A stretch of DNA of 64,000 nt from positions 146,004,473 to 146,068,472 of the forward strand of contig NC_134399.1 of NCBI RefSeq assembly GCF_050003625.1. The letters run 5' to 3'. The position numbers were made by a program, and so were the translations under genes. Positions within the stretch are counted from its first letter, which is position 1. Each line of letters opens with the position of its first letter. Origin of the DNA: Haematobia irritans. Lineage: Eukaryota > Arthropoda > Insecta > Diptera > Muscidae. Positions 3,967 to 62,299 of this stretch are shown here, in pieces. The notes under the pieces were generated by a model. It ran no database searches and had not been told where the DNA came from. It saw only the letters and a list, made by a program, of their open reading frames with translations.

Positions 3967-4160
3967 AATATGGGAAACATTTAAATCTGAAGCATTTTTA
4001 AGGAAACTTCGCAAAAGTTTATTTATTATTTATCGCTCGATATATGCATTAGAAGTTAAGGAAAAATAGAATCATTTTTACAACTTTTCGACTAAGCAGT
4101 GGCGATTTTACAAGGAAAATGTTGGTATTTTGACCATTTTTTTCGAAATCAGAAAAAATA

Positions 4161-4900
4161 TATATGGGAGCTATATCAAAATCCGAACCGATTTCAACCA
4201 AATTTGGCATGCATAGCTATAATGCTAATTCTACTTCCTGTGCAAAATTTCAACTAAATCGGAGCAAAAAATTGGCCTCTATGGTCATATGAGTATAAAT
4301 CGGGCGAAAGCTATATATGGGAGATATATCTAAATCTGAACCGATGTCAACCAAATTTGGCACGCATAGCTACAATGCTAATTCCACTCCCTGTGCAAAA
4401 TTTCAATTAAATCGGAGTAAAAGATTGGCCGCTGTGGTCATATGAGTGTAAATCGGGCGAACGATATATATGGGAGCTATATCTAAATCTGAACCGATGT
4501 CAACCAAATTTGGCACGCATAGCTACAATACTAATTCTACTCCCTGTGCAAAATTTCAACTAAATCGGAGTTAAAAATTTACCTCTGTGGTCATTTGAGT
4601 GTAAATCGGGCGAAAGATATATATGGGAGATATATCTAAATCTGAACCGATTTCAACCAAATTTGGCACACATAGCTACAACAATAATTCTACTCCCTGT
4701 GCAAAATTTCAATTAAATCGGAGTAAAAGATTGGCCACTGTGGTCATATGAGCGTAAATCGGGCGAACGATATATATGGGAGCTATATCTAAATCTGAAC
4801 CGATTTCAATAAAATTTGGCACACTTGACTACACTGCTAATTGTACTTCTAGTGCAAAATTTCAACCAAATTGGTGTAAAACTCTGGCTTCTGGGGCCAG
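4161..4900 (+). repeat. 153-bp tandem array of family A
   Basis: The landmark TATATGGGAG recurs at 4161, 4314, 4467, 4620 and 4773, an exact 153-bp spacing four times in a row. Units differ by scattered substitutions, so the array is not fresh. Each unit holds TCTAAATCTGAACCGATTTC and GTGCAAAATTTCAA. The same period appears in families B and C. Confidence 0.92.
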
Positions 4901-6557: not shown

Positions 6558-7735
6558 AAGTGAGTCAAGTAGAAAATGGGGCAGGGTCAACTATATCACA
6601 CCCTAAACCACCCCTACTGAATTAAAAAACCTAAGTATTAATAAACCATTATTATAAAAGGAGGAAAATCGCTCAATTACTGTGTGTAATAAATCCAAAA
6701 TTGTAACAATTGGCCAATATTATTATGTAAGAGCAAAATGTAAGTCTAAATGCGATCGGCTAGTAGATCAAAATTTGAAAATTGACTAACATTGATAAAT
6801 AAATAAGAGTATTATGGTTAAATTTGGGGAAATCGAGCAATGCATATATATGGGAGCTATATCTAAATCTTAACCGATTTGGATGATATTTTGCAGGTTT
6901 GGTTGATAACTCCGTAAGTTGCCTTTTGCTCAATTTGGTTAATAAATGAGGCCACTAAGGGCACAAATATGGATATTAGGGGGACATTTTTCAAAATCGG
7001 ACGAAACATATATATGGGATGCCACATAACCTAACCTAACATTATCACAATGGACTGAATAGTCTAAGTACTATATATGGGAGCTATATCTAAATCTGAA
7101 CCGATTTGGATGACATTTGACAGGTTTGGTTGATATGACAGAGAGTTATCTTTTGCTAAATTTAAGTAAGATCGATTAATAAATACGGATATTATGACAA
7201 CATTTTGGAAAATCGGGCGATGCATATATACGGGAGCTATATCTAACTCTGAACCGATTTCGATGAAATTTTGCATATACATTTAGTACCATAGAAGACT
7301 AGATCTAGCTGACTTTGAGTAAGGTCAAATCATAAATAAGGGTTTCTGGTTAAATTTAGGAAAATTGGGCGATGCATATATATGGAAGTTATACCTAAAT
7401 CTGAACCGATTTCGATGATTCTTCGCACATAGAGTTAGTACTATAGAATATTCGATTTGGCTAACTAAGAGTAAGATCGGTTAATAAATAAGGGTTTTAT
7501 GGCCAAATTTGGGAAAATCGGGCTATACATATATATGGGAGCTATATCTAAATCTGAACCTTCTTCGATGAATTTTTACACACTTAAAGTGTAGTGAATT
7601 GAATTACTTTTTGTCACATTTGACGACGGTCGTTTACTATTTGTCGAAATCGGGGGGTTTCCAACGAATGCAAAACCATGTAAATCGGTTCGTGCGTTCG
7701 GGAGTTAAAGCGTCAGGAAGGAAAACCCGACTGAT
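6558..7735 (+). mobile_element. DINE-like family A2 variant
   Basis: Starts with a decayed A-type terminus (AAGTGAGTCAAGTAG...CTATATCACACCC). It continues with ~152-bp repeats whose landmark TATATGGGAGCTATATCTAA recurs at about 6846, 7074, 7377 and 7531. Repeat bodies differ from family A (for example GGTTAATAAATAAGGG), so this is a sister subfamily. A 48-bp LINE/SINE tail fragment lies inside it. It abuts a B element on the right. Confidence 0.75.
7023..7072 (+). repeat. Orphan LINE/SINE tail fragment
   Basis: ATAACCTAACCTAAC followed by ATCACAATGGACTGAATAGT. It contains only tail-type sequence, with the pentamer part placed before the body, so it has been rearranged. It interrupts the A2 array. 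Confidence 0.65.
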
Positions 7736-8990: not shown

Positions 8991-9048
8991 ATTGGTCCAT
9001 ATCGATTCATAATCATGGTTACCACTCGAGCCACACATAATCTATCAA

Positions 9049-9553
9049 AATTTTATTTCTATAGAAAATGTTGTCAAAATTTTAATTCTATAGAGAATGT
9101 TATCAACATTTTCATTCTATTAAAAATTTTGTCAAAATTTTAATTTCTATAGAAAATTTTGTAGAAATTTTATTCCTATAGAAAATGTTGTCAAATTTTA
9201 TTTCTATAGAAAATGTTATCAACATTTTGATTCTATTGAAAATTTTGTCAAAATTTTATTTCTATAGAAAATTCTGTCAAAATTTTATTTCTATAGAAAG
9301 TTTTGTCAAAATTTTATTTCTTTAGAAAATTTTGTCAAAATTTTATTTCTATAGAAAATTTTGTGAAAATTTTATTTCTATAGAAAATGTTATCAACATT
9401 TTATTTCTATTGAAAATTTTGTCAAAATTTTATTTCTATAGAAAATGTTGTCAAAATTTTAATTCTATAGAGAATGTTATCAACATTTTAATTATATTGA
9501 AAATTTTGTCAAAATTTTATTTCTATAGAAAATTTTGTAGAAATTTTATTCCT
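9049..9553 (+). repeat. 30-bp minisatellite, left part
   Basis: About 16 units of the 30-bp repeat (TTTCTATAGAAA plus TTTTGTCAAAATTTTA). It belongs to the B element. The array is cut at 9553 by the 437-bp repeat and resumes at about 10680. Confidence 0.92.
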
Positions 9554-9669
9554 GTTTTTTTGGTTTTTTGATCTCAGCTTAAAGCCATGCATTGACTAAA
9601 CTACAAGTGTAGCTTAACCAACAGAGGAAAAGTATGCTTGTCAAATTTATTTGGGCAAAGCCCTATAGA

Positions 9670-9738
9670 CTGCAAGATGGTTGGATGTACAGCTGTTTCG
9701 GAATTACCACATTCCTCATCAGCATCCTCTACTTGCAG
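9670..9738 (-). ncRNA. Type I hammerhead ribozyme, copy 1
   Basis: Minus strand, 5' to 3': stem I strand CTGCAAG, loop TAGA, GGATG; core CTGATGA; stem II GGAAT / loop GTGGTA / ATTCC; core GAAA; short stem III with loop AGCT; cleavage triplet GTA; then CATCC, loop AACCAT, CTTGCAG. GGATG pairs with CATCC (5 bp) and CTGCAAG with CTTGCAG (7 bp). All conserved core bases are present. Predicted cut lies between 9688 and 9687. The 2-bp stem III suggests better activity as a dimer, as in retrozymes and Penelope-like elements. Confidence 0.93.
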
Positions 9739-10106
9739 CAAAACTATCAACCAATTATCAGAATAAATTCGGGTAATTCACTCAACCCAACGTGAACTAC
9801 ACTTGAACCTCCCGAAAAAGGGTTTGATAGTCGGCTACTGCCTAAACAAATTTGCCAGCATATCTCTTTTCCTTTGCCAAACTCAAATCATCGATTTGTA
9901 TGTATTTGGCTGGGTTTGTTTTTGAGCGTGCTTCCTCTATCTTCATTCGTTTTGTTTGTTATTGTTGGCTTCTCTTCAATCGTTATTGTTGTTTTTTTGG
10001 TTTTTTGATCTCAGCTTAAAGCCATGCATTGACTAAACTACAAGTGTAGCTTAACCAACAGAGGAAAAGTATGCTTGTCAAATTTATTTGGGCAAAGCCC
10101 TATAGA

Positions 10107-10175
10107 CTGCAAGATGGTTGGATGTACAGCTGTTTCGGAATTACCACATTCCTCATCAGCATCCTCTACTTGCAG
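10107..10175 (-). ncRNA. Type I hammerhead ribozyme, copy 2
   Basis: Same sequence and pairing as copy 1, displaced by exactly 437 bp. Predicted cut between 10125 and 10124. Cleavage at copies 1 and 2 would release one 437-nt monomer. Confidence 0.93.
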
Positions 10176-10543
10176 CAAAACTATCAACCAATTATCAGAA
10201 TAAATTCGGGTAATTCACTCAACCCAACGTGAACTACACTTGAACCTCCCGAAAAAGGGTTTGATAGTCGGCTACTGCCTAAACAAATTTGCCAGCATAT
10301 CTCTTTTCCTTTGCCAAACTCAAATCATCGATTTGTATGTATTTGGCTGGGTTTGTTTTTGAGCGTGCTTCCTCTATCTTCATTCGTTTTGTTTGTTATT
10401 GTTGGCTTCTCTTCAATCGTTATTGTTGTTTTTTTGGTTTTTTGATCTCAGCTTAAAGCCATGCATTGACTAAACTACAAGTGTAGCTTAACCAACAGAG
10501 GAAAAGTATGCTTGTCAAATTTATTTGGGCAAAGCCCTATAGA

Positions 10544-10612
10544 CTGCAAGATGGTTGGATGTACAGCTGTTTCGGAATTACCACATTCCTCATCAGCATC
10601 CTCTACTTGCAG
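10544..10612 (-). ncRNA. Type I hammerhead ribozyme, copy 3
   Basis: Third identical hammerhead, again 437 bp further on, in the partial unit at the upstream (right) end of the minus-strand array. Predicted cut between 10562 and 10561. Only ~67 bp of unit sequence lie beyond it before the minisatellite resumes. Confidence 0.92.
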
Positions 10613-10679
10613 CAAAACTATCAACCAATTATCAGAATAAATTCGGGTAATTCACTCAACCCAACGTGAACTACACTTG

Positions 10680-10975
10680 AAAATTTTGTCAAATTTTATT
10701 TCTATAGAAAATTTTGCCAAAATTTTATTTCTATACAAAATGTTGTCAAAATCTTAATTTTATGGAGAATGTTGTCAACATTTGAATTCTATTGAAAATT
10801 TTGTCCAAATTTTACTTCTATAGAAAAATTTTGTTAATATTTTATTTCTATAGAAAATGTTGTCAAGATTTTATTTTGTCAAAATTTTATTTCTATAGAA
10901 ACTTTTGTCAACATTTTATTTCTATGGAAACTTTTGTGAAAATTTTATTTCTATAGAAAATTTTGTCAAACTTAT
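10680..10975 (+). repeat. 30-bp minisatellite, right part
   Basis: Continuation of the B-element minisatellite after the hammerhead repeat, about nine diverged units. The B-element right end follows. Confidence 0.9.
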
Positions 10976-14208: not shown

Positions 14209-14430
14209 TCTACCAAAATTTTATTTCTATAGAAAATTTTGTCAAAATTTTATTTATATAGAAAATTTTGTTAAAATTTTATTTCTATAGAAAATGTTGA
14301 CAAAATTTTATTGCTATAGAAAAATTTGTCAATATTTTATTTCTATAGAAAATTTTGTAAAATTTTTATTTCTATAGAAAATGTTGTCAAAATTTTATTT
14401 CTATAGAAAATTTTATCAAACTGAATTAAT
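14209..14430 (+). repeat. 30-bp minisatellite of the B element
   Basis: About seven units with TTTCTATAGAAA and TTTTGTCAAAATTTTA, following the B array as in the other B copies. Confidence 0.9.
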
Positions 14431-18286: not shown

Positions 18287-18314
18287 AAGGGCGATACGGT
18301 CAAAATTTGGTCAA
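18287..18314 (+). repeat. Left terminal inverted repeat of the DD37E transposon
   Basis: 28 bp, matching the complement of 19572-19599 at 27 positions. It directly follows the target TA. Confidence 0.92.
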
Positions 18315-18443
18315 TATAAACTTGACGTATTTTTTTTTTCAATTTTGTATTTTAAAAACCTAACACCCCTCATTTTGAAGGTGTGTGTGTGTGTAGAATG
18401 TTGCTCCTATTTTGATTTTAGAATTCACTCTTCAGTTGTCAAA

Positions 18444-19472
18444 ATGCCGTCCAAGCAAGAAGAGCAGCGTATCAAAATTTTGCTCGCGCATCGCGAAAAT
18501 CCGAGCTACTCGCACGCAAAGCTGGCAAAATCGCTAAAAGTTGCCAAATCAACCGTTACAAATGTAATTAAAGTGTTTGGGGAACGTTTGTCGACAGCCA
18601 GGAAGTCTGGATCGGGGGGAAATCGAAAACCGGAAGCTGCTGAGACGACAAAGAGAGTTGCAAGTAGTTTTAAGCGAAACCCTAACCTCTCTCTCCGAGA
18701 TGCCGCAAATAAGCTGGGTGTATCGTCTACAACCGTGCATCGAGCCAAAAAACGAGCCGGACTATCGACTTACAAGAAGGTAGTGACTCCAAATCGACTC
18801 CGAATCGACGAAAAACGAAATACGACGGCCAAAGCGCGATCCCGGAGGCTGTACACGACGATGCTGACGAAGTTTGACTGCGTGGTAATGGACGACGAAA
18901 CCTACGTCAAAGCCGACTACAAGCAGCTTCCGGGACAGGAGTTTTATACGGCAAAAGGAAGGGGAAAGGTAGCAGATATTTTCAAGCACATAAAACTGTC
19001 AAAGTTCGCAAAGAAATATCTGGTTTGGCAAGCCATCTGTACCTGTGGCTTGAAAAGCAACATTTTCAAAGCTTCCGGGACTGTCAACCAAGAAATTTAC
19101 GTGAAAGAGTGTTTGAATAAACGTCTGCTGCCTTTCCTGAAGAAACACGGTTGTTCCGTACTGTTTTGGCGGGATTTGGCATATTGCCATTACGGTAAAA
19201 AGGCCATGGAGTGGTACGCCGCCAACAACGTGCAGGTGGTTCCCAAGGACAAGAACCCTCCCAACACGCCAGAGCTCCGCCCAATTGAGAAATACTGGGC
19301 TATTGTCAAGCGGAACCTAAAGCAAACCAAAAAATCTGCTAAGGACGAGCAGCAGTTCAAGGCAAACTGGCTTTCTGCGGCGAAGAAGGTGGACAAGGTG
19401 GCTGTACAAAATCTGATGGCAGGTGTCAAGCGTGAGGCCCGGCAATTCGGATTTGGAAAAGCGAAAGCCTAA
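18444..19472 (+). CDS. IS630/Tc1/mariner transposase, DD37E type, 342 aa
   Basis: Cut-and-paste transposase that binds the terminal repeats and catalyses excision and integration at TA. The ATG giving MPSKQEEQRIK is preferred; the frame is open ~33 codons upstream but that part does not look like transposase. Residues ~9-48 and ~80-110 look like two helix-turn-helix DNA-binding motifs (SHAKLAKSLKVAKSTV; RDAANKLGVSSTTVHRAKK). The catalytic triad fits D150 or D151 (VVMDDETYV), D244 (FWRDLAYCHY) and E282 (RPIEKYW), with 37 residues between D244 and E282, the spacing that defines DD37E. No stop or frameshift was seen. R243 and Y247 differ from what I recall as usual Pro and Ser around the second Asp, which may affect activity. 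Confidence 0.92.
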   Translation: MPSKQEEQRIKILLAHRENPSYSHAKLAKSLKVAKSTVTNVIKVFGERLSTARKSGSGGNRKPEAAETTKRVASSFKRNPNLSLRDAANKLGVSSTTVHRAKKRAGLSTYKKVVTPNRLRIDEKRNTTAKARSRRLYTTMLTKFDCVVMDDETYVKADYKQLPGQEFYTAKGRGKVADIFKHIKLSKFAKKYLVWQAICTCGLKSNIFKASGTVNQEIYVKECLNKRLLPFLKKHGCSVLFWRDLAYCHYGKKAMEWYAANNVQVVPKDKNPPNTPELRPIEKYWAIVKRNLKQTKKSAKDEQQFKANWLSAAKKVDKVAVQNLMAGVKREARQFGFGKAKA

Positions 19473-24298: not shown

Positions 24299-25346
24299 AG
24301 TTATAATTTTTCACCTTCGTCATTTATAGAGTCTTAACCCTTTGACTACCGATGTCCACTAAGGAGGACATTCGAAAACAACCCCAAACACTATTTCTCC
24401 ACACAGTTTCTATTTATTTCTCGATGGTATTTTGACGTATCGGCTTTCATCTAAATAAGATATTAGTATGTTCCATAATGGTAAGCATTAAAATTCATTT
24501 TTATAAACTTCTTAAACAATAAACGAAAAATACGACATTTTTAGACCATTTTTCTGGTGTATGTCTCTAGTAAATGGCATTCATACAATAAATGTGGATT
24601 TTTATACCCTCTACCATAGGAGGGGGGGTATATTAACTTTGTCATTCCGTTTGTAACACACCGAAATATTGCTCCAAGACCCCATAGAGTATATATATTC
24701 TGGGTCGTGGTGAAATTCTAAATCGATCTCAGCATGTCCGTCCGTCCGTCCGTCTGTTGAAATCACGCAAACTTCCCAACGCAACAAGCTATCGAGCCTC
24801 TAAAAGAAGCATATTTCATCCGATCCGGCTGAAATTTGGTACATGGTGTTGGTTTGTGGTCTCTAACAACCATGCAAAAATTGGTCCACATCGGTTCATA
24901 ATTATATAAAGCCCCCATATAAACCGATCCCCAAATTTGGCTTGAGGAGCCTCAAAGAGAAGCAAATTTCATCCAATCCGGTTGAAATTTGGAACATGGT
25001 GTTAGTATATGGTCTCTAACAACCGTGCCAGAATTGGTCCATATCGGTGAATTATTATATATAGCCCCCATATAAACCGTTCTCCAGATTTGACCTCCGG
25101 AGCCTCTAAGAGAAGAAAATTTCATCCGATCCGGTTCAAATTTGGAACGTGGTGTTAGTATATGTCCGCTAACCATACCAAAATTGGTCCATATCGGTCC
25201 ATAATTATATATAGCCCCCATATAAACCGTTCTCCAGAAAATTGGTCCATATCGGTCTATAGTTATATATAGCCGATCCTCAATCACACAAAAATTGATC
25301 CATATCGGTTCATAATCATGGTTGCCACTCGAGCAAAAAATAATCT

Positions 25347-25583
25347 ACCAAAATTTTATTTCTATAGAAAATTTTGTCAAAATTTTATTTCTATAGAAAA
25401 TTTTGTCAAAATTTTATTTCTATAGAAAATTTTGTCAAAATTTTATTTCTATAGATAATTTTTTAAAATTTGATTTCTATAGAAAATTTTGTTAAAATTT
25501 TATTTCTATAGAAAATTTTGTTAAAATTTCCTTTCTATAGAAAATTTTGTCAAAACTTTATTTCTATAGAAAATTTTGTTAAT
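25347..25583 (+). repeat. 30-bp minisatellite of the B element
   Basis: Eight units, among the most regular in the window (several consecutive TTTCTATAGAAAATTTTGTC copies without change). Confidence 0.93.
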
Positions 25584-28210: not shown

Positions 28211-29121
28211 GAAGGTTAGGTTAAATTGGCAGCCCGATTAAGTTTCAGGCTCACTTAGACTATTCAGTCCATTGTGATACCACATTTAACTAAAAGTACC
28301 TATTACATCAACCAGATTGTTCCAGAAACATTAACAGACTGCTTAAGTTAACGTTTTCCAGTTCCGCCTGTAATCTAAAGCTATATGCCCCTAAAATTCG
28401 CTTACGCCTTACACAAAATGCAGGACACTCACACAAGAGGTGTTTAATTGATTCCTTTTCCTCCGCATCATGACTGCTCATACCATAGTCATTGTCATAC
28501 TTCACACCAATAGTTATGTAAATTCGTCTATCGGGCAGCGATCCGTTGTAGCAGATATCAGGAGTGATATCTGACGTCTTGGGAACACTAGCATATCTAG
28601 TGTGCGGTTCAAGTTTAAATGGGGCCATATTTGCTTGGTGTCGTTACAACCCTTGCAATTCTCCCATCGAACATTTTCCATCATGACAGCCTTCTCACGC
28701 AGTAAGAGCTTGCATATAGCCAGAGACATACCAACAGATTCTAGTTCCCCTGGAATATGTAAGGTAGTTCCTAGCCTTGCTAACTCATCCGCTTCGCAGT
28801 TCCCCGGTACGTTCCTATGACCAGGCACCCATATTAGGTGAATATTGTACTGCTCACCCATCTCGTTGAGAGATTTGCGGCAGTCGATGGCCGTTTTCGA
28901 GTTGAGGAACACAGAGTCCAAGGATTTTATTGCAGGTTGACTGTCAGAGTATATATTAATGCCAATATTTATTGGAACATTATATCTTTTATTCACCGAG
29001 GTCTGTGTACACCACGCCTTACTGTTGGGAATTAGAGTTTCAAACTTTTTGTCGAAAAGTGGTTTCGCCAGAGTGTAATCCACTACGTTAGGTGACCGTA
29101 CATTTTTTCCGACCACAGCGA
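28211..29121 (-). mobile_element. LINE with RNase H domain, partial; tail shared with SINE1
   Basis: Minus-strand 3' part of a non-LTR retrotransposon: RNase H domain, a C-terminal region rich in Cys and His, then a 3' end at 28211-28290 reading GTGGTATCACAATGGACTGA ... AACTTAATCGGGCTGCC and a TTTAACC/TAACC-type terminus. The last ~70 bp match the SINE1 tail except for one short block, so it belongs to the likely source of SINE mobility. The left neighbour is another LINE fragment and the right neighbour is a SINE1 copy. Confidence 0.88.
28300..29116 (-). pseudogene. LINE ORF2 C-terminus: RNase H plus Cys/His region, frameshifted
   Basis: The frame from 29116 has NIYSDSQPAIKSLDS and, ~45 residues on, HLIWVPGHRNVPGNCEADEL, matching RNase H of I/R1/LOA-type LINEs with later catalytic residues present. 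The usual first acidic strand is not visible, so the 5' part is missing or diverged. After residue ~190 the reading shifts frame to a segment with SSHDAEEKESIKHLLCECPA, the typical C-terminal CxC/H pattern. The reverse transcriptase is absent, so it is inactive. Confidence 0.85.
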
Positions 29122-29122
29122 T

Positions 29123-29437
29123 AGGTTAGGTTAAATGGCAGCCCGATGTATCAGGTTCACTTAGACTATTCAGTCCATTGTGATACCACAGTGGTGAACT
29201 TCTCTCTTATCACTAAGAGCTGCCCGATTCCATGTTAAGCTCAATGACAAGGGACCTCCTTTTTATAGCCGAGTCCGAACGGCGTTCCACATTGCAGTGA
29301 AACCACTTAGAAATGTCACCAGCATTACTGAGGTGGGATAATCCATCGCTGAAAAACTTTTTGGTGTTCGGTCGAAGCAGGAATCGAACCCACGACCTTG
29401 TGTATGCAAGGCGCGCATACTAGCCATTGCTCCACGG
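29123..29437 (-). mobile_element. SINE1 copy joined head to head with composite arm
   Basis: Tail (GGTTAGGTTAAATGGCAGCC) at the left, B box and head at the right, with a ~25-bp deletion in the body. The head runs straight into GGCCAACTAAATGTATATTT, the same linker that joins the two heads of the element at 25742-26623. Confidence 0.88.
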
Positions 29438-35805: not shown

Positions 35806-35884
35806 GTAAAATGGTAGATGGTTTTTATTGTTTGGTAGATTGGAAGAATGATTGATATCCCTCTCTATCTAAGAGGTACTTCAA

Positions 35885-37235
35885 TTTTTTACAGAAATAA
35901 AATGTTGACAAAATTTTCTATAGAAATAAAATGTTGACAAAATTTCTATAGAAATTAATTTTGACAAAATTTTCTATAGAAATTAAATTTTGACAAAATT
36001 TTCTATAAAAATAAAATTTTGACAAAATTTTCTATAGAAGTAAAATTTTGACAAAATTTTCTATAGAAATAAAATTTTGAAAAAATTTTCTAAAGAAATA
36101 AAATTTTGACAAAATTTTCTATAGAAATAAAATTTTCACAAAATTTTCTATAAAAATAAAATTTTGACAAAATTTTCTATAGAAGTAAAATTTTGACAAA
36201 ATTTTCTATAGAAATAAAATTTTGACAAAATTTTCTAAAGAAGTACAATTTTGACAAAATTTTCTATAGAAATAAAATTTTGACAAAAATTTCTCTTGAT
36301 ATAAAATTTAAATCGGCAAATTTTTTATAGAAAAAAAATTTTGAGAAAATTTTTATAGAAATAAAATTTTGTCGAAAAATTTAACAAACTTTTTCATTGG
36401 AAATAAAATTTGACATAATTTTCTATGAAATCAAAATTTTGACAAAATTTTCTATAGAAATAAAATTGTCACACAATTTTCTATAGAAATAAAATTTTCT
36501 AAGGAAATAAAATTTTGACAACATTTTCTATAGAAATAAAATTTTGACAAAAATTTCTATAAAAATAAAATTTTGACAAAATTTTCTATAAAAATAAAAT
36601 TTTGACAAAAATTTTCCATACAACTAATGATCACATTTCTTGTAGAAATTAAATGTTGACAAAATCTTCTATAGAAATAAAATTTTGACAAAATTTTCTA
36701 AAGAAATAAAAAATTATTATAAAATTTTGTATAGAAGTAAAATTTTGACAAAATTTTCTATAGAAATAAAATTTTGACAAAATTTTCTAAAAAAATAAAA
36801 TTTTCACAAAATTTTGTATAGAAGTAAAATTTTGACAAAATTTTCTATAAAAATAAAATTTTGACAAAATTTTCCATACAAATAAAGTTTTGATCAAATC
36901 TCCTGTAAAAATTAAATTTTGACAAAATCTTCTATAGAAATAAAATTTTCACAAAATGTTCTAAAGAAATAAAATTATGACAAAATTTTGTATAAGTAAA
37001 ATTTTGACAAAATTTTCTGTAAAAATAAAATTTTTACAAAATTTTCAATAGAAATAAAATTTTGACAAAAATTTGTGATAGATATAATATTTTGACAAAA
37101 TTTTCCATACAACTAAAGTTTTGATCAAATTAAATTAAATTTGGAAACAATTTTTTTCTATAGAAAAAAATTTTGGCAGAATTTTCCATAAAACTGAAGT
37201 ATTGACAAAATTTTCCATACAACTAAATAGTTAAT
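35885..37235 (-). repeat. Long 30-bp minisatellite block
   Basis: About 1.35 kb, some 45 units of AAATAAAATTTTGACAAAAT with TTCTATAG, reversed relative to the B-element arrays. Units carry many substitutions and a few deletions, so the block is old. No B-element termini flank it. Confidence 0.92.
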
Positions 37236-37529
37236 TATACGCCCGAAAAAATTGTCGCTTGAAGGGGATACCACAATATATGATATTGCAGATACTGAAA
37301 TAAACCTCTCAATAAAATAATAAAACCTTTGTTTCGAAGAAAAACATTTTTTCATAACAAAAATAAAAATTTGATTTTTTTAATTTGGTAAATTATTAGT
37401 ATTTTCTTTTTTTTATGACATCGTGCTCAGGGGCCGGTCCTGATTATTGTTTACCCTGCCTCCTTCTGGGTTTTGCAAACCTATGCACAATATAATGCGA
37501 CGCTCGGCATAAATATAAAACTAGTTGCT
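37236..37529. other. Unassigned DNA with a small A-like remnant
   Basis: 37437-37500 (CTCCTTCTGGGTTTTGCAAA) resembles the far end of the A copies at 42.0 and 55.6 kb. Nothing else is recognised. Confidence 0.55.
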
Positions 37530-37690
37530 AGTTTTTCTGCAAATAAAGGATGCTGATGTGGAAAGTGATAGTTCCGAAACGATTAGATGTACAATCGCCT
37601 TGCCGTCTTAAGGATTTTGAACTAATCAGTTTGACAAACATAGTCAGCATATGGTTTTAAGCTGAACCTAAAACAGTGCGGATAACATTT
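37530..37690 (+). mobile_element. Decayed relative of the 437-bp hammerhead unit
   Basis: Plus strand aligns with the minus strand of the 437-bp unit: CTGCAAATAAAGGATGCTGA, GTTCCGAAAC, AGATGTACA, CTTGCCGTCT, TTTGACAAACATAG, ATGGTTTTAAGCTGA in the same order. The hammerhead core reads CTGATGT instead of CTGATGA. Stem II (GGAA/TTCC) and GAAA are kept, but stem III and the stem I match are broken, so it is predicted inactive. It shows the family is older than the array at 9.5 kb. Confidence 0.82.
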
Positions 37691-38974: not shown

Positions 38975-40015
38975 TTGTAGAAAATTTTGTCAAAATTTTA
39001 TTTCTATAGGAAATTTTGTGAAAATTTTATTTTTATAGGAAATTTTGTGAAAATTTTACATCGATAAAAAATTTTGTAAAAATTTTATTTCTATAGGAAA
39101 TTTTGTGCAAATTTCATTTCTTTTGGAAATTTTGTCAAAACTTCATTCTCTAGGAAATTTATACAAAATTTCATATCTATAGAAAGTTTGTCAAAATTTC
39201 CTATTAAGAGGAAATTTTGTCAAAAATAAAGGTCCAAAGAAAATTTTGTCATAATTTTATATTATAATTTCCATTGAATTTTTTTAAATATTTTTTAATA
39301 AAAAATTTTGTCAAAATTTTATTTGTATAGGAAATTTTGTGAAAATTTTATTTTTATAGGAAATTTTGTGAAAATTTTATTTCGATAAAAAATGGTGTCA
39401 AAAATTTTACTTCGATAAAAAATTTTGTCAAAATTTTATTTCTATAGGAAATTTTGCGCAAATTTCATTTCTATAGGAAATTTTGTCAAACCTTCACTCT
39501 CTAGGAAATTTATACAAAATTTCATATCTATAGAAGGTTTGTCAAAATTTCCTATTTAGAGGAAATTTTGTCAAAAAAAAGGTTGTCATAATTTTATATT
39601 ATAATTTCCATAGAATTTCTTTTTTTAATATTTTTTTATAAAAAAATTTGTCAAAATTTTTTTTCTTGTGAAAATTTTATTTTTATAGGAAATTTTGTGA
39701 AAAGTTTATTTCGATAAAAAATGTTGTCAAAAATTTTACTTCGCTAATAAATTTTGTCAAAATTTTATTTCTATAGGAAATTTTGTGCAAATTTCATTCC
39801 TATAGGAAATTTTGTCAAAACTTCATTTCTCTTGGAAATTTATACAAAATTTCATATCTATAGAAAGTTTGTCAAAATGTCCTATTTAGAGAAAATTTTG
39901 CCAAAAAAAGGTCCAAAGAAAATTTTGTCATAATTTTATATTGTAATTTCCATAGAATTTTTTTTAAATATTTTTTTATAAAAAATTTTGTCAAAAATGT
40001 ATTTCTATAAAAATT
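38975..40015 (+). repeat. 30-bp minisatellite with higher-order repeat
   Basis: The units are organised in three ~330-350-bp blocks. The marker CAAAATTTCATATCTATAG recurs at 39164, 39515 and 39845 (steps 351 and 330). Each block contains the same ordered set of variant units, ending in TATTATAATTTCCATAGAAT-like sequence. Blocks were therefore duplicated as wholes after the basic units diverged. Confidence 0.88.
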
Positions 40016-40568: not shown

Positions 40569-42087
<1,519 letters not shown>

Positions 42088-43411: not shown

Positions 43412-44539
43412 TAAGTTTGGCTGATAAGTCCCCGGTCTGATACATAGATGGCATCGTTAGTATTAAATGCATATTATTTTTATATAACACCAACCTTCAA
43501 ATGATTCGTGTCAAAATTTGACGTCTGTAAGTCAATTAGTTTGTGAGAAATAGCGTATTTTGTGAAGCAACTTTTGTTATTGTGAAAAAAATGAAAAAAA
43601 GGATTTTCGTGTTTTGATAAAATACCATTTTCTGAAGGGAAAAAATACGGTGGAAGCAAAAACTTGGCTTGATAATGAGTTTCCGGACTCTGCCCCAGAG
43701 AAATCAACAATAATTGATTGGTATGCAAAATTCAAGCGTGGTGAAATAAGCACGGAGGACTGTGAACGCAGTGGACGCCCGAAAGAGGTGGTTACCGACG
43801 AAAACATCAAAAAAATCCACAAAATGATTTTGAATGACCGTAAAATGAAGTTGATCGAGATAGCAGAGGCCTTAAAGAACGTGTTGGTCATATCATTCAT
43901 CAATATTTGGATATGCGGAAGCTCTGTGCAAAATGGGTGCCGCGCGAGCTCACATTTGACCAAAAACAACAACGTGTTGATGATTCTGAGCCGTGTTTGC
44001 AGCTGTTAACTCGTAATACACCCGATTTTTTCCGTCGATATGTGACAATGGATGAAACATGGCTCCATCACTACATTCCTGAGTCCACTCGCCAGTCGGC
44101 TGAGTGGACAGCGACCGGTGAACCGTCTCCGAAGCGTGGAAAGACTCAAAAGGCCGCTGGCAAAGTAATGGCCTTTGTTTTTTGGAATGCTCATGGAATA
44201 ATTTTTATCGATTATCTTGAGAAGGGAAAAACCATCAACAGTGACTATGATATGGCGTTATTGAAGCGTTTGAAGGTCGAAATCGCGGCAAAACGGCACC
44301 ATATGAAGAAGAACTTACGGCCGTAAGTTCGGCCAGGCCGAAGCTTATGTACCCTCCACCATGGATTGCGTAGAAACTTCTACTAAAGACTGTCATCCAC
44401 AATCGAATTGCTTGGGTTGCGGTAACACTTGCCGATGGCAAGGTATCTTGAAAAATTCTTAACACCGTCTTCTAAATTGTAAGTTAGTCCATACGGGGGA
44501 TATATTAAACAAAAAAAAGGCCGATCAAATATGTATATA

Positions 44540-44925
44540 ATTCAGTTCGACAAAATTTTCTATAGAAATAAAATGTTGACATAATTTTCTATAGAAATAA
44601 AATGTTGATTAAATTTTCTATAGAAATTTTGACAAAATTTTCTATAGAAATACAATTTTGACAAAATTTTCTATAAAAATAAAATTTTGACAAAATTTTC
44701 AATAGAAATAAAATTTTGACAAAATTTTCTATAGAAATAAAATTTTGACATAATTATCTATAGACATAAAATTTTGACAAAATTTTCTATAGAAATAAAA
44801 TTTTCACAAAATTTTCTACAGAAATAAAATTTTAACAAAATTTTCTACAGAAATCAAATGTTGACAAAATTTTCTATAGTAATAAAATGTTGACAAAATG
44901 TTCTATAGAAATAAAATTTTGGTAG
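44540..44925 (-). repeat. 30-bp minisatellite of the B element
   Basis: About 13 units in reverse orientation, placed between the B right end and the 153-bp array as in other B copies. Confidence 0.92.
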
Positions 44926-47709: not shown

Positions 47710-49880
47710 AACTCAAAATTTTATTTTTATAGAAAATGTTGTCAAAATTGTATTTTTATAGAAAATTTTGTTAATTTTTTTTTTCTATAAAAAATTTTGT
47801 CAAAATTTTATTTCTATTAAAAATTTCGTCCAAATTTTATTTTTATAGAAAATTTTGTAAACATTTTATTTCTATAGGAAATTTTGTCCAAATTTTATTT
47901 CTATAAAAAATATTCTCCAAATTTCATTTCTGTGGAACATTTTCCCACAATTTTATTTCTACAGAAAATTTTATCAAAAATTCTATTTCTATAGGAAATG
48001 TTGTCCAAATTTTATTTCTATGGAAAATTTTCTGAAAATTTTATTTCTATAGAAAATTTTGCCAAATTTTATTTCTATAGAAGATTTCGTCAAATTTTTA
48101 TTTCTATAGAAAATTTTGTCAAATTTTTTTTCTATAGAAAATTTTGTTAAAATGTTATTTCTATAGAAATTTTGTCAAAATTTTATTTCTATAGAACATT
48201 TTTCCAAAATTGTATCTCTATAGAAATTTTTTTCAAAATCTATTTCTATAGAAAATTTTGTAAAAATGTTATTTCTTAGAAAATGTTGTAAAAATTTTAT
48301 TTCTACAGAAAATTTTTCAAATTTTTTTTCTATGAACAATTTTGTTAAAATTTTATTTCTAGAGAAAATTTTGTCAAGATTTTATTTCTATAGAAAACTT
48401 TGTCAAAATTTTATTTATACAGAAAATTTTGTGAAAGTTTTATTTTTACAGAAAATTTTGTCAATATTTTATTTCTACAGAAAATTTTGTCACAATTTTA
48501 TTTCTATGGAAAATTTTCTCAAAATTTTATTTCTATAGAAAATATTGTCAACATTTGATTTCTATAGAACATTTTGTCCAACTTTTATTTCTATGGAAAA
48601 ATTTTATTTCTATAGAAAATTTTGCAAATTTTATTTCTATAGAAAATTTTGTCAAAATTTTATATCTATAGAAAATTTTGTCAAAATTTTATTTTTATAG
48701 AAAAATATTATTTCTATAAAAAATCTTGTCAATATTTTATTTATATAAAAAATTTTGTCCAAATTTTATTTTTATGTTATAGAAAATTTTGTCAAAATGT
48801 TATTTCCATAGGAAATTTTGTCAAAAGTTTATTTCTATCGAAAATTTTGTGAAAATTTTATTTTTATAGAAAAATTTTATTTCTATAGAAAATTTTATCA
48901 AATTTTATTTCTATAGAAAATTTTGTCCAAATATTATTTCTATAGAAAATGTTGTCAAAATTCTATTTCTGTAGGAAATGTTGTCCAAATTTTATTTCTA
49001 TAGAAAATTTTGTCAAAGTTTTATTTTTACAGAAAATTTTGTCAAAATTTTATTTCTACAGAAAATTTTGTCAAAATTTATTTGTATGGAAAATTTTCTC
49101 AAAGTTTTATTTTTATAGAAAATTTTGTCAAAATTTAATTTCTATAGAAAATTTTGTCAAAATTATATTTCTATAGAAAAATTTGTCAAAAATTTATTTT
49201 TAGAGAAAATTTGGTCAAAATGTTGTTTCTATAGAAAATTTTGTCAAAATTTTATTTTTATAGAAAATTTTGTCAAATTTTACTTCTATAGAAATTTTGT
49301 CAAAATTTTATTTCTATAGAAAATTTTGTTAACATTTTATTTCTATAGAAAATTTTGTCAAATTTTTATTTCTAGAGAAAATTTTGTCACAATTTTATTT
49401 GTATGCAAATTTTCTCAAAATTTTATTTTTATAGAAAATTTTGTCAAAATTTTATCTTTATAGAAAATTTTGTCAAAATTTTATTTCTATAGAAAATTTT
49501 GTCAAAATTTTACTTCTATAGAAAATTTTGTCAAACTTTTATTTCTATAGAAAATTTTGTCAAAAATTTATTTTTAGAGAATATTTGGTCAAAATGTTGT
49601 TTCTATAGAAAATGTTGTCAAAAATTTATTTTTAGAGAAAATTTGGTCAAAATGTTGTTTCTATAGAAAATTTTTGTCAGAATTTTATTTCTATAGAAAA
49701 TTTTGCCAAAATTTTATTTTTGCAGAAAAATTTTGTCAAAATTTTATTTCTGTGGAAAATTTTCTCAAAATTTTATTTCTATAGAAAATTTTCTCAAAAT
49801 TTTATTTCTATGGAATATTTTCACAAAATTTTATTTCTATAGAAAATTTTGTAAAATTTTTATTTCTAGAGAACATTTGT
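47710..49880 (+). repeat. Longest 30-bp minisatellite block
   Basis: About 2.17 kb, some 70 units of the TTTCTATAGAAA / TTTTGTCAAAATTTTA repeat with many single-base variants. As 30 is a multiple of three, open frames of repeated decapeptides (KFYFYRKFCQNFISIENFVK type) arise, interrupted by length changes; they are not evidence of a gene. No DINE-like termini flank the block. Confidence 0.93.
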
Positions 49881-50912
49881 GAAGTACTTCTTAGTTGGAG
49901 AGCAATATTTCTCAAAATCGACCAAAACATCAAGAATTCTACAAATGTACCAAACACTCAAAAATCGACCATGTTTAGTAGAATTCTACAAACTTGTGGG
50001 CTGGTAGTATCGTGGTACCGCACTTCTGCAAAGATGATGTGAATCGTAGCGTAACTGTGAATGTTGAGTACAACAGTGGGATGGTATCCAACTTTTTTTT
50101 GGCCAAAATGCAAGAACTGGACGTGAGTTTAACTTTCTTTTGAATTGCTTTCAAGCCGAAGAATTAAAGGACACATTTAAGACACAATTCAATTTTAAAT
50201 TTGAGTTTTGCGTACTTTTTTGTAGAAAATAAATTTTGATTTATTCGTTTTTTTCAGGTTTTTTTCTTCATGTGCTAGCAAAACCCATTAAACGATAATT
50301 TGAGGTTTCCAAATTTAAGTGGAAATTATTCTATAAGTACACAGAAAAAAATATTTACGTGATATTAAAGATTTTATTTCTATGGAAAATTTTCTCAAAA
50401 TTTTATTTCTATGGAAAATTTTCTCAAAATTTTATTTCTATAGAAAATTTTGTAAAATTTTTATTTCTAGAGAACATTTGTGAAGTACTTCTTAGTTGGA
50501 GAGCAATATTTCTCAAAATCGACCAAAACATCAAGAATTCTACAAATGTATCAAACACTCAACAATCGACCATGTTTAGTAGAATTCGACAAACTTGTAG
50601 GCTGGTAGTATCGTGGTACCGCACTTCTGCAAAGATGATGTGAATCGTAGCGTAACTGTGAATGTTGAGTACAACAGTGGGATGGTATCCAACTTTTTTT
50701 TGGCCAAAATTCAAGAACTTGACGCGATTTTTAAACTAAAGGACACATTTAAGACCCAATTCAATTTTAAATTTGAGTTTTGCGTGTTTTTTTGTAGAAA
50801 ATAAATTTTGATTTATTCGGTTTTTTTTTCAGATTTTTTCTTCATGTGCTATCAAAACCCATTAAACGATAATTTGAGTTTCCAAATTTAAGTGGAAATT
50901 ATTCTATAAGTA
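49800..50912 (+). repeat. Tandem duplication of ~601 bp
   Basis: GAAGTACTTCTTAGTTGGAG occurs at 49881 and 50482. About 500 bp after it are nearly identical, including ACCGCACTTCTGCAAAGATG and CAAAACCCATTAAACGATAA. The second copy lacks ~36 bp. The unit holds the end of the minisatellite, an unknown segment and the 5' part of an E1 element. A diverged third copy of the middle is at 51530-51700. Confidence 0.88.
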
Positions 50913-56345: not shown

Positions 56346-56639
56346 TTTTTATACCCACCACCATAGAATGGTGATGGGGGTATAATAAGTATGTCATTCC
56401 GTTTGTAACACATCGAAATATCGATTTCCGACTATATAACATAAAGTATATATATTCTTGATCAGGGAGAAGTTCTAAGACGATATAAGCATGTCCGTCT
56501 GTCCGTCTGTCTGTCTGTTGTAATCACGCTACAGCCTTCAATAATGGCGCTATCGTCCTGAAATTTGGCACAGATTCGTGTTTTGTTTGCCGGCAGGTCA
56601 ATTTCGAAGATGGGCTATATCGGTCCAAGTTTTGATATA

Positions 56640-57740
56640 GTCCCCATATAAACCGACCTCCAGATGTGGCGTCTTGGACATTTAAAAGCCGTAGTTTTTA
56701 TCCAATTTGCCTGAAATTGGAAATCTGGAGGTATTTTAGGACCATCAAAGAGTGTGCCGAAAATTGTGCTTATCGGTCCATGTTTCGGTATAGCCCCCAT
56801 ATAGACCGATTTCCGGATTTTGCTTCTTTGGCGTCTAGAAACTGTATTTTCTATCTGATTTGCCTGAAATTGAAAATCTAGAGGTATTTTAGGACCATAA
56901 AGAGGTGTGTCGAAAATGGTCTGTATCGGCCCATGTTTTGGTATAGCCCCCATATAGACCGATCTCCCGATTTTGCTTCTTGGGCCTCTAGAAACTTTAT
57001 TTACCATCCGATTTGCCTGAAATTGGAAATGTAGAGGTATTTTGAGATCAAAAAAAGGTGCGCCGAAAATGGTACCCATCGGTCCATGTTTTGGTATAGC
57101 CCCCATACAGACCGATCTCCCGTCTAGATCTTGGGCGTCTAGAAACTGTATATTCTATCCGATTTGCCTGAAATTGAAAATCTAGAGGTATTTTATTTAT
57201 GGTCCGTATCGGTCCACATTTTGGTATAGCCCCCATATAGGCCGATCTCCTGATTTTTCTTTTTGGGCTTCTAAAAACTGTATTTACTATCCGATTTGCC
57301 TGAAATTGGAAATCTAGAGGTATTTTGGGACCATAAAGAGGTGTGTAGAAAATGGTTAGTATCGGTCCATGGTTTGGTATAGCCTACATATAGACCGATT
57401 TCCGGATTTTGCTTCTTGGGCGTCCAGAAACTGTATTTTTTATCCAATTTGCCTGAAATTAAAAATCTAGAGGTATTTTAGGACCAAAGATTGGTGTGTC
57501 GAAAATGGGGTGTATCGGTCCATGTTTCGGTATAGACCCCATTTTAGGGTTTTTTTTCCCGGGAACGGGATCCCGGGAATTCCCGTCCGGGAAAAAGAAA
57601 ACCCTACCACATATAGACCGATCTCCCGATTTTAGATTTCGTAGTTTTTACAAAATTTTGTCAGAAATTGGAATTCTAAAGGTATTTGAGGAACATTAAG
57701 AGGTGTGTCGAAAATTTTGAGTATTGGTCCATGTTTTAGT
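56640..57740 (+). repeat. 153-bp tandem array of family C
   Basis: GTATAGCCCCCAT-type landmark TAGC(C) starts at 56791, 56944, 57097, 57237, 57380 and 57533, giving steps 153, 153, 140, 143 and 153. The two short steps are small deletions. On the minus strand the first units stay open as ~51-residue peptide repeats (MGAIPKHGPI start). Confidence 0.9.
57547..57604. mobile_element. 58-bp GC-rich palindromic micro-element
   Basis: GGGTTTTTTTTCCCGGGAAC at the left, CCGGGAAAAAGAAAACCC at the right, with three CCGGGA/CCCGGG blocks in the middle. TA on both sides (57545-57546, 57605-57606). It interrupts a C-array unit. High GC in AT-rich surroundings marks it as foreign to the array. Confidence 0.75.
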
Positions 57741-60927: not shown

Positions 60928-62299
60928 AACAAGTAAGGAAAGTCTAAAGTCGGGAGGGGCCGACTATATTATACCCTTCACCACTTTGTAAGTCCACATT
61001 TTTGATACCATATCAAATCCATCAAATGCGTTGGATGCTATATGAATCCATACACATGTATTCTGTATATCTGAGCAGATCTGTACAGAGTTATGCAATA
61101 GTTATAGATTTTACATTTAAGTCGGCTAATGCGCTGAGGTGGAACACAACGTTAGTAAAAAAATAAATAAATAAAAATAAAGGTTTGTCCCAAATACATA
61201 CATTTAAATATCACTCGATCTGGACAGAATTTGATAGACTTGTACAAAATCTATAGACTGAAAATTTAAGTTGGCTAATGCACTAGGGTGGAACATAATG
61301 TTAGTAAAAAAATATGGGAAACATTTAAATCTAAAGCAATTTTAAGGAAACTTCGCAAAAGTTATTTATGATATATCGCTCGATATATATGTCTTAGAAG
61401 TTTAGGAAAATTAGAGTAATTTTTACAACTTTTCGACTAAGCAGTGGCGATTTTACAAGGAAAATGTTGTTATTTTGACCATTTTTGTCGAAATCAGAAA
61501 AACATATATATGGGAGCTATATCTAAATCTGAACCGATTTCAACCAAATTTGGCACGCATAGTTACAATGCAAATTCTACTCCCTGTGCAAAATTTCACT
61601 TAAATCAGAGTAAAAGATTGACCACTGTGGTCATATGAGTGTAAATCGGGCGAAAGCTATATGTGGCAGCTATATCTAAATCTGAACCGATTTCAATAAA
61701 GTTTGGCACACTTGACTACACTACCAATTGTACTCCTAGTGCAAAATTTCAACGAAATTGGGCTAAAACTCTGGCTTCTGGGACCGTATTAGTCCATATC
61801 GGGCGAAAGATATATATATATATATATATATGGGAGCTATATCTAAATCTGAGCCGATTTCAACCAAATTTGGCACGCATAGTAACACTGCTGATTCTAC
61901 TCCCTATGCAAAATTTCAACTGAATCGGAGCAAAAAGTTGGCCTCTGAGGGCAAATGAGTGTAAATCGGGCGAAAGCTATATATGGGAGCTATATCTAAA
62001 TCTGAACCGATTTGGCTGATATTTTGCACGTTTCAAAATCAATAGGGATCGTCTTTGAGCCGAAACAGGACCCTATACCAAATTTTAGGACAATCGGACT
62101 AAAACTGCGAGCTGTACTTTGAACACAAAAATACATCAACAGACAGACAGACAGACGGACATCGCTAAATCGACTCAGAATTTAATTCTAAGCCTATCCG
62201 TATACTAAAAGGTTGGTCTATGATTACTCCTTCTTGGCGTTACATACAAATGCACAAACTTATTATACCCTGTACCACAGTAGTGGTGAAGGGTATAAA
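60928..62299 (+). mobile_element. DINE-like family A element with internal duplication
   Basis: Left end with GTCGGGAGGGGCCGAC and TTATACCCTTCACCAC. The segment after GTTAGTAAAAAAATAAATAA re-enters at AAAGGTTTGTCCCAAATACA, so ~110 bp of the left part are present twice. Array units follow, one with a lengthened TA run, then the CAGACAGACAGACGG run and the right hairpin TTATACCCTGTACCAC...GTGGTGAAGGGTATAA. Confidence 0.85.
61809..61830. repeat. Short (TA)n tract, about 11 units
   Basis: Located at the same place in the A unit (after GGGCGAAAGA, before TGGGAGCTATATC) as the 206-bp tract at 41.6 kb. An intermediate length. Confidence 0.9.

Follow-up and report, generated by a model that had tools for sequence, protein, structure and literature searches.

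Non-LTR retrozymes are already known from animals, insects included (PMC7229834), as are hammerhead repeats in Aedes (PMC3088659) and type III hammerheads in the housefly and other flies (PMC7936874), to the extent that the cited parts of these sources describe them. The question at stake is which enzyme moves animal retrozymes. Penelope-like elements have been proposed as the movers, in passages of PMC7229834 that point to co-occurrence with retrozymes and to the hammerheads and tandem copies that both have in common. The purified Penelope-like protein of Anolis cuts both strands of its target, for which it prefers AT-rich DNA, and extends both. It begins copying at two neighbouring internal positions of an AC-rich stem loop, and the segment enclosed by them is the optional ‘tail’ of 30–40 bp in genomic copies, which the authors call a signature unique to Penelope-like elements (PMC11167929). 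In the same in vitro system hammerhead cleavage is dispensable for insertion, unprocessed RNA is the main substrate, and the two strands were not seen to differ in their start sites (PMC11167929).

The array described here lies in a stretch of 64,000 bases of the Haematobia irritans genome, analysed as a whole and called the window below. It is a non-LTR retrozyme, of an animal family already described, and its novelty lies in the pattern of its insertion. On the whole, we consider it highly probable that Penelope-type machinery inserted the array, as a recent copy of a retrozyme that is non-autonomous and does not code for protein. With the retrozymes of coral, mussel and axolotl, as the relevant sections of PMC7229834 present them, it shares a type I hammerhead, tandem units without coding capacity and some hundreds of bp long, a low G+C content (38% for the unit here), copies from dimers to multimers, a stable predicted circle and a 2-bp helix III with a palindromic tetraloop; its 437 nt are just above the 170–400 nt given there for expressed retrozyme RNAs and within the 150–450 bp given for the repeats. 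The two-site start, the paired inversion and the minisatellite target reported below are not among the features in those sections. With Penelope-like elements (PAc of Anolis and Penelope of Drosophila virilis; PMC11167929) it has in common two internal AC-rich starts 30–40 nt apart, priming of both strands, an AT-rich target, tandem and partial copies and a hammerhead, but it lacks their long ORF, has a unit of only 437 nt, forms multi-lap arrays and, instead of their minimal hammerhead, carries a full one with helix III and an extended stem I. Closer to the host, the hammerhead repeats of Aedes aegypti are also dipteran and, in the cited part of PMC3088659, lie partly in interspersed repeats, as here, whereas the hammerheads that PMC7936874 gives, in the part cited, for Musca domestica, Rhagoletis, Hermetia and Drosophila pseudoobscura are of type III and not, as here, those of a type I tandem retrozyme. 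In searches of open-access full text we found no report of Penelope-type starts, paired ends or minisatellite targeting in retrozymes. The insertion scars described below carry the two-site ‘tail’ and the both-strand priming reported for the purified Penelope-like protein.

The array and its hammerheads

Tandem Repeats Finder places a repeat of period 437 at 9546–10681 (2.6 copies, 99% matches), and a comparison at an offset of 437 finds all 692 positions identical between 9553–10244 and 9990–10681. Since this identity is unbroken, the array is taken to span ~9554–10681, with edges that are ambiguous between host and element by one base on the left and by up to five on the right (TTGAA). Units are numbered in the ribozyme sense from the predicted cut.

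9554..10681, minus strand in the hammerhead sense: array of the retrozyme, 2.58 copies of a 437-bp unit that do not differ
~10681 and ~9554, minus strand: array ends, the RNA-5′ end at ~10681 (up to 5 bases ambiguous) and the RNA-3′ end, i.e., the start of reverse transcription, at ~9554
10125..10561, minus strand: complete 437-nt monomer between two predicted cuts
9688..10124, minus strand: complete 437-nt monomer between two predicted cuts (unit position 1 = 10124, 437 = 9688)
10544..10612, minus strand: first type I hammerhead, outer stem I included; predicted cut at 10562/10561
10107..10175, minus strand: second type I hammerhead; predicted cut at 10125/10124
9670..9738, minus strand: third type I hammerhead; predicted cut at 9688/9687

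The longest ATG frame in the array has 53 codons, i.e., the unit is non-coding, and no ORF for a telomerase-like reverse transcriptase with GIY-YIG is present in it; it is for want of a long ORF that we class the element as a retrozyme rather than as a Penelope-like element. A scan of the unit for pol III and other promoters found neither a box B nor a TATA box and only one loose box-A match, and a tRNA scan of the whole window gave none.

A descriptor scan of the window matches the minus strand at three places spaced by 437 bp, each time with the same type I hammerhead, and nowhere else. Each copy consists of a stem I of 5 bp, an internal loop and an outer stem of 7 bp, CUGAUGA, a stem II of 5 bp and GAAA, with ACAGCUGU as helix III and the cut after GUA; cleavage is predicted after 10562, 10125 and 9688, and the 3′ products would start at 10561, 10124 and 9687. 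None of 100 simulated first-order Markov windows matches the descriptor in its strict form, which asks for 5 bp or more in stems I and II and for 3 or more in stem III. The 45-nt core is letter-perfect in 122 of the 131 ribozyme-spanning copies (at least 94% identity) of the 39 genomic loci described below. On the other polarity no type I hammerhead is found by the descriptor or by the covariance model introduced below, type III being covered there by Rfam, an insensitive test.

Rfam reports no hammerhead at the gathering threshold in the window, and none at E≤10 on 1,301 or 101 bases; the snoRNA and viral stem-loop matches in these two pieces are far below their respective cut-offs. Rfam was also run on viral loci. 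At the gathering threshold it finds no hammerhead in ten of them, of which only three (L001, L004, L009) fit the type I descriptor; at E≤5, on five descriptor-fitting loci (L001, L004, L005, L009, L013), there is no match in three, and the remaining two give only sub-threshold HH9 matches of 27 and 21 bits (cut-off 52). Viral loci of other types yield Hammerhead_3 matches (the best of 45.2 bits, just below the cut-off) and Hammerhead_II matches. Rfam is thus a weak and insensitive test for type I hammerheads of this kind, and a covariance model of our own was therefore used instead, built on 40 aligned sequences out of 98 descriptor-fitting hammerheads from viral contigs, none of them taken from the window. 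Among these contigs two carry several descriptor-fitting type I hammerheads on single stretches, five in L059 and four in L074. Searched against the 64-kb window, the model gives exactly three significant matches, at 9683–9727, 10120–10164 and 10557–10601, with E-values of ~5e-05 each that are rough, the calibration being short; with the filters off, the next best match has E = 0.24.

These results bear out most of the original prediction for this locus. Its tandem 437-bp unit holds over 692 comparable positions without a single difference, in 2.58 units; the hammerheads that it described, three alike and of type I at a spacing of 437 bp on the minus strand, are recovered both by the descriptor and by our model; and the RNA 5′ ends that it expected at 10124 and 9687 agree with the predicted cut positions. 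It had also proposed a check with the Rfam covariance models, which gave no hit, whereas the type I model built here returned the three significant matches.

The strand of helix III is a perfect palindrome, and folding of a lone 69-nt motif pairs core bases with helix III, in a structure 5.3 kcal/mol below the active fold. For two copies of the motif a double hammerhead is the predicted minimum (−49.5 against 2 × −22.1 kcal/mol). The same gap is at least 5 kcal/mol in only 2 of the 98 viral-contig hammerheads and at most 3 in 95 of them. Since the predicted fold favors the dimer, cleavage is expected in multimers and little of it in a circle of a single unit, and the hammerheads probably work as dimers, as far as can be judged from a folding prediction that ignores the tertiary contacts between stems I and II. 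The axolotl hammerhead is reported to cleave weakly as a monomer and better as a dimer (PMC7229834, in the section cited), and newt satellite and axolotl retrozymes share a weak palindromic helix III predicted to favor a dimer of two ribozymes (PMC7229834 and PMC6155905, in the sections cited); the fly element differs from them in its invertebrate host and in that its dimer dependence is a folding prediction. The predicted 437-nt circle folds better than 100 of 100 shuffled sequences (z = −5.6), with 61% of its bases paired, below the 70% quoted for other retrozymes in the cited part of PMC4918200.

Genomic copies and their two start sites

A search of the host genome (1.17 Gb, 181 contigs) with the unit gave 823 first-look candidates, of which the best 40 were scored, and at least 180 unit matches among those listed, mostly 98–100% identical and on all five large contigs. 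The 39 mapped loci are that of the window and the 38 others that could be grouped among the matches listed, i.e., among the best matches of the 823 candidates; chosen as best matches and not as a random sample, they over-represent young copies. Matches of less than 94% identity or shorter than about 60 bp were dropped before counting, a filter that removed divergent fragments in L138, L158, L161, L164 and L171 and short pieces in L141 (45 bp) and L149 (37 bp, inverted, ending near unit position 107). Forty-nine of the 60 arms are longer than one unit, and the longest has about 7.4. No LTR-like arrangement was noticed among the 39 loci. A plant LTR retrozyme is ruled out by the type of the hammerhead, I and not III, and by copies in form of tandem or inverted multimers instead of LTRs with a 4-bp duplication.

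The RNA-3′ ends of these arms, 60 in all, are confined almost entirely to two places in the unit, 30 being at a site A and 29 at a site B; the only other one, at the left of L169, is near unit position 330. When ambiguous bases are given to the host, A narrows to unit ~133–142 and B to ~175–179, with lower bounds that are set by the chosen anchors (the BLAST ends themselves are at 123–147 and 175–187). These are two adjacent internal starts enclosing a tail of 30–40 nt, as in Penelope-like elements, at 59 of the 60 ends. Both sites are in an AC-rich stretch (79% A+C over unit 119–189), and no other 70-nt segment of the predicted RNA circle is as little paired as unit 119–188.

9936..10006, minus strand: AC-rich stretch, unit 119–189, with start sites A and B as deduced from the 39 loci
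9992–9983, minus strand: start site A, unit ~133–142
9950–9946, minus strand: start site B, unit ~175–179
10373..10443, minus strand: AC-rich start region in the neighbouring unit
37519..37663, plus strand: decayed relative, hammerhead region and ~75 nt downstream (BLAST E = 9e-14 over 57 nt)

The RNA-5′ ends, on the other side, are scattered across the unit. Seven arms (L139, L145, L146, L159, L162, L164, L172) end together at unit 305–309, at CCCTTTTTCGGG. The older divergent fragments removed by the filter (in L138, L158, L161, L164, L171) mostly end near site A too, an observation given little weight here because the AC-rich stretch may diverge fast. In the decayed relative of the window core A9 has changed to U, and homology stops near site A.

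Inverted multimers, joined 5′-to-5′ with their RNA-3′ ends outward, make up 21 of the 39 loci, and not a single locus is joined 3′-to-3′; from this structure both target strands appear to have been primed. One outer end is at A and the other at B in 20 of the 21 inverted loci (the exception is L169), where an independent choice of ends would leave about half of them with A/A or B/B. At the centre junctions of these loci the arms overlap by 0–5 nt in 13, are separated by a gap of 1–112 nt in seven and overlap at length in one. The loci with a single arm (n = 18, the window included) start at A in ten cases and at B in eight. Either strand can use A or B, but within one locus the two ends differ. 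This rule is sharp and can be counted in any retrozyme-bearing genome, and it suggests how both target strands share one RNA template.

Sequence variants tell something about that template. They were scored after dropping matches of less than 98% identity or 60 bp, trimming HSP ends by 6 and masking unit 117–189. Variants common to at least two loci fill a locus completely in 16 cases and are carried by part of its units in eight, and 300 shuffles gave a mean of 1.45 such filled-locus cases and a maximum of 6. For variants private to one locus the proportion is reversed, with all units carrying them in two cases and some units in 26. Per site, units differ on average by 0.0022 inside an arm, by 0.0047 from one arm to the other of a locus and by 0.0069 from locus to locus. 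Since private variants have mostly not spread within their loci, the multimer probably goes back to a single sequence copied at the time of insertion, rather than to continuing homogenization. Among the variant cases with units in both arms, all units of both carry the variant in 6 of 11, and it is no more than likely that both arms were copied from the same RNA molecule.

The original prediction had read the locus as a retrozyme that arose from a circular or multimeric RNA, and had suggested a genome search for 437-bp units. That search has now turned up dispersed tandem copies, mostly 98–100% identical; the presence of copies on all five large contigs, in arrays of up to ~7.4 units with non-integral ends, supports the retrozyme reading, and the two preferred RNA-3′ starts, the scattered RNA-5′ ends and the locus-wide source variants support the proposed origin. 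The prediction did not include the decayed relative at 37519–37663, the inverted multimers at other loci, the two start sites or the minisatellite target.

Minisatellite targets and target-site duplications

The array of the window interrupts a 29-bp minisatellite, an uninterrupted paralogue of whose insertion site is found in the left flank.

~9045..9553, plus strand: 29-bp minisatellite, left flank and insertion target
~10682..10970, plus strand: 29-bp minisatellite, right flank
9118..9236, plus strand: uninterrupted paralogue of the insertion site, in the same minisatellite

Compared with this paralogue the window locus is without up to 3 nt and has no target-site duplication, none being seen at this locus beyond words common in the minisatellite. 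In the window the minisatellite forms ten arrays in both orientations, which take up 6,193 of the 64,000 bases (1291–1430, 9045–9550, 10679–10970, 14214–14420, 25349–25582, 35883–37129, 38978–39906, 44549–44921, 47713–49878 and 50371–50469), and its unit holds AAAATTTT palindromes.

The same minisatellite is found in at least one 200-bp flank of 34 of the 39 loci, against a background share of 10% in the window and 19% in a 15-kb control, a small sample of 15 pieces of which three hold all the minisatellite. A preference for AT-rich targets, as described for Penelope-like machinery, is thus seen in these 34 loci. In the junction table, which covers 59 of the 60 ends (the odd end of L169 is omitted), 48 junctions match the minisatellite at 17/22 or better. 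Cuts in the top strand are at phase 15–18 of its unit in 21 of 27 cases and those in the bottom strand at phase 27–29 or 1 in 18 of 21, a preference that giving the ambiguous bases to the host may sharpen. Taken together, these phases correspond to a stagger of ~12–13 nt with 3′ overhangs.

Exact duplications in the 21 inverted loci are of 13–18 bp in 13, at least 30 bp in three (explicable by the periodicity of the minisatellite) and 7–10 bp in two, and are missing in three. In the 18 one-arm loci they are of at least 16 bp in three (which may again be periodic), 11 bp in one and 6–8 bp in eight, with none in six. Where present, then, the duplication is longer than 4 bp, as in animal non-LTR retrozymes. 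Five loci are outside the minisatellite (L140, L147, L153, L169, L170); of their seven outer RNA-3′ ends six are again at A or B, and only the left one of L169 is not. Two of these five, L153 and L169, have exact duplications within the range of 13–18 bp (13 bp in L153).

Insertion model and rival explanations

How these observations might fit together can be outlined as follows. A multimeric transcript would be cut by the type I hammerheads, probably as dimers, into 437-nt RNAs, and these would be closed into circles. Penelope-type machinery would cut the target, preferably the AT-rich 29-bp minisatellite, with a stagger leaving 3′ overhangs of ~12–13 nt. Both 3′ ends would then act as primers of reverse transcription on a single RNA circle, within its unpaired AC-rich stretch, and copying would begin at site A for one strand and at site B for the other. 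Several laps may be completed by each cDNA, and the two would be joined at their meeting point into a palindromic 5′-to-5′ multimer; a single primed end would give a simple tandem array, as in the window. We infer the cleavage, the circularity of the RNA and the Penelope-like identity of the enzyme from these patterns. To the model in its full form (one circle copied from both 3′ ends of a staggered break, each strand with its own start site, a palindromic multi-lap insertion, homing to the minisatellite, and a hammerhead active only as a dimer, which trims concatemers and spares the monomeric circle) we would give about an even chance. The template may have been a circle copied over several rounds; a less simple alternative is one long transcript of a uniform array. 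A linear multimer transcribed from homogeneous repeats could likewise yield copies of several units that share a single sequence within each locus, and insertion by the Anolis protein in vitro used mainly unprocessed RNA and needed no hammerhead cleavage (PMC11167929). As to the partner, a genome search with the GIY-YIG profile PF01541 gave one match only, which looks like host SLX1. We take this single match, which adjoins MED31, to be that gene, both having been named by eye. The target sequence, the two start sites and a ribozyme with its predicted monomer/dimer switch would be enough for reconstitution in vitro.

The same retrozyme and circular template might also have been moved by a LINE-type enzyme through target-primed reverse transcription, with twin priming as the source of the inverted copies. 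Duplications of ~13 bp and AT-rich targets would suit LINEs as well, site A adjoins a tract rich in A, which might serve a LINE enzyme, the window itself holds an RNase H fragment, probably of a LINE (28517–29125, minus strand), and the 15-bp duplications of anemone repeats have been likened to LINE mobilization (PMC4918200, in the part cited). Against it, PMC11167929 describes the tail as peculiar to Penelope-like elements, and a LINE would have to account for two internal starts ~40 nt apart that are paired as A/B in 20 of 21 inverted loci. All this taken together, we hold a LINE to be an unlikely mover, though the least unlikely of the rival explanations considered here. We know of no LINE pattern with paired starts at two internal sites ~40 nt apart.

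Identical non-coding tandem units inside another tandem repeat are, at first sight, what a satellite spreading at the DNA level would look like, whether by unequal crossing over or by reintegration of extrachromosomal circular DNA. Such processes are disfavored by RNA-3′ ends at two sites with scattered 5′ ends, by inverted loci that are 5′-to-5′ only, and by the distribution of variants, where private ones are in some units (26 of 28) and shared ones mostly fill their loci, which argues against continuing homogenization; six of seven outer RNA-3′ ends at A or B in the five loci outside the minisatellite weigh against them too, and we regard a DNA-level origin as very improbable. Slightly less probable still is that inverted multimers arose by snap-back copying of a single cDNA and not by priming from both target strands. 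Inverted loci do occur, and seven arms end at unit 305–309, near a CCC…GGG palindrome, but snap-back copying would give outer ends of A/A or B/B where 20 of 21 loci have A/B, and in 16 of 20 inverted loci the outer junctions on both sides agree, at 12/14 or better, with the two specific cut positions, as if both had been primed. Nor is it any likelier that pieces of a replicating RNA agent, viroid-like or delta-like, have become integrated. The predicted RNA circle, which is small, folds well (z = −5.6 against 100 shuffles) and contains a hammerhead, would be in keeping with one; on the other hand, the other polarity has no type I hammerhead and the longest ATG frame is only 53 codons, three probes of the element have no exact match in viral contigs (searches of viral and prokaryote sequence collections gave none either), and the delta-like hammerheads of toad and termite are of type III in the cited part of PMC7936874. 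The preferred reading hence stays that of a retrozyme inserted by Penelope-type machinery.

Other mobile and repeated DNAs are found elsewhere in the window. An open frame of 394 codons at 18288–19472 on the plus strand has helix-turn-helix and DDE endonuclease matches and is probably a Tc1-type transposase, and a mariner transposase extends over two frames at 43566–44326 on the same strand (HTH_48, Transposase_1). Tandem Repeats Finder also reports repeats with a period of 153 bp at 4154–4881, 7072–7572, 24794–25236, 41031–41622, 56605–57542 and 61505–62013.
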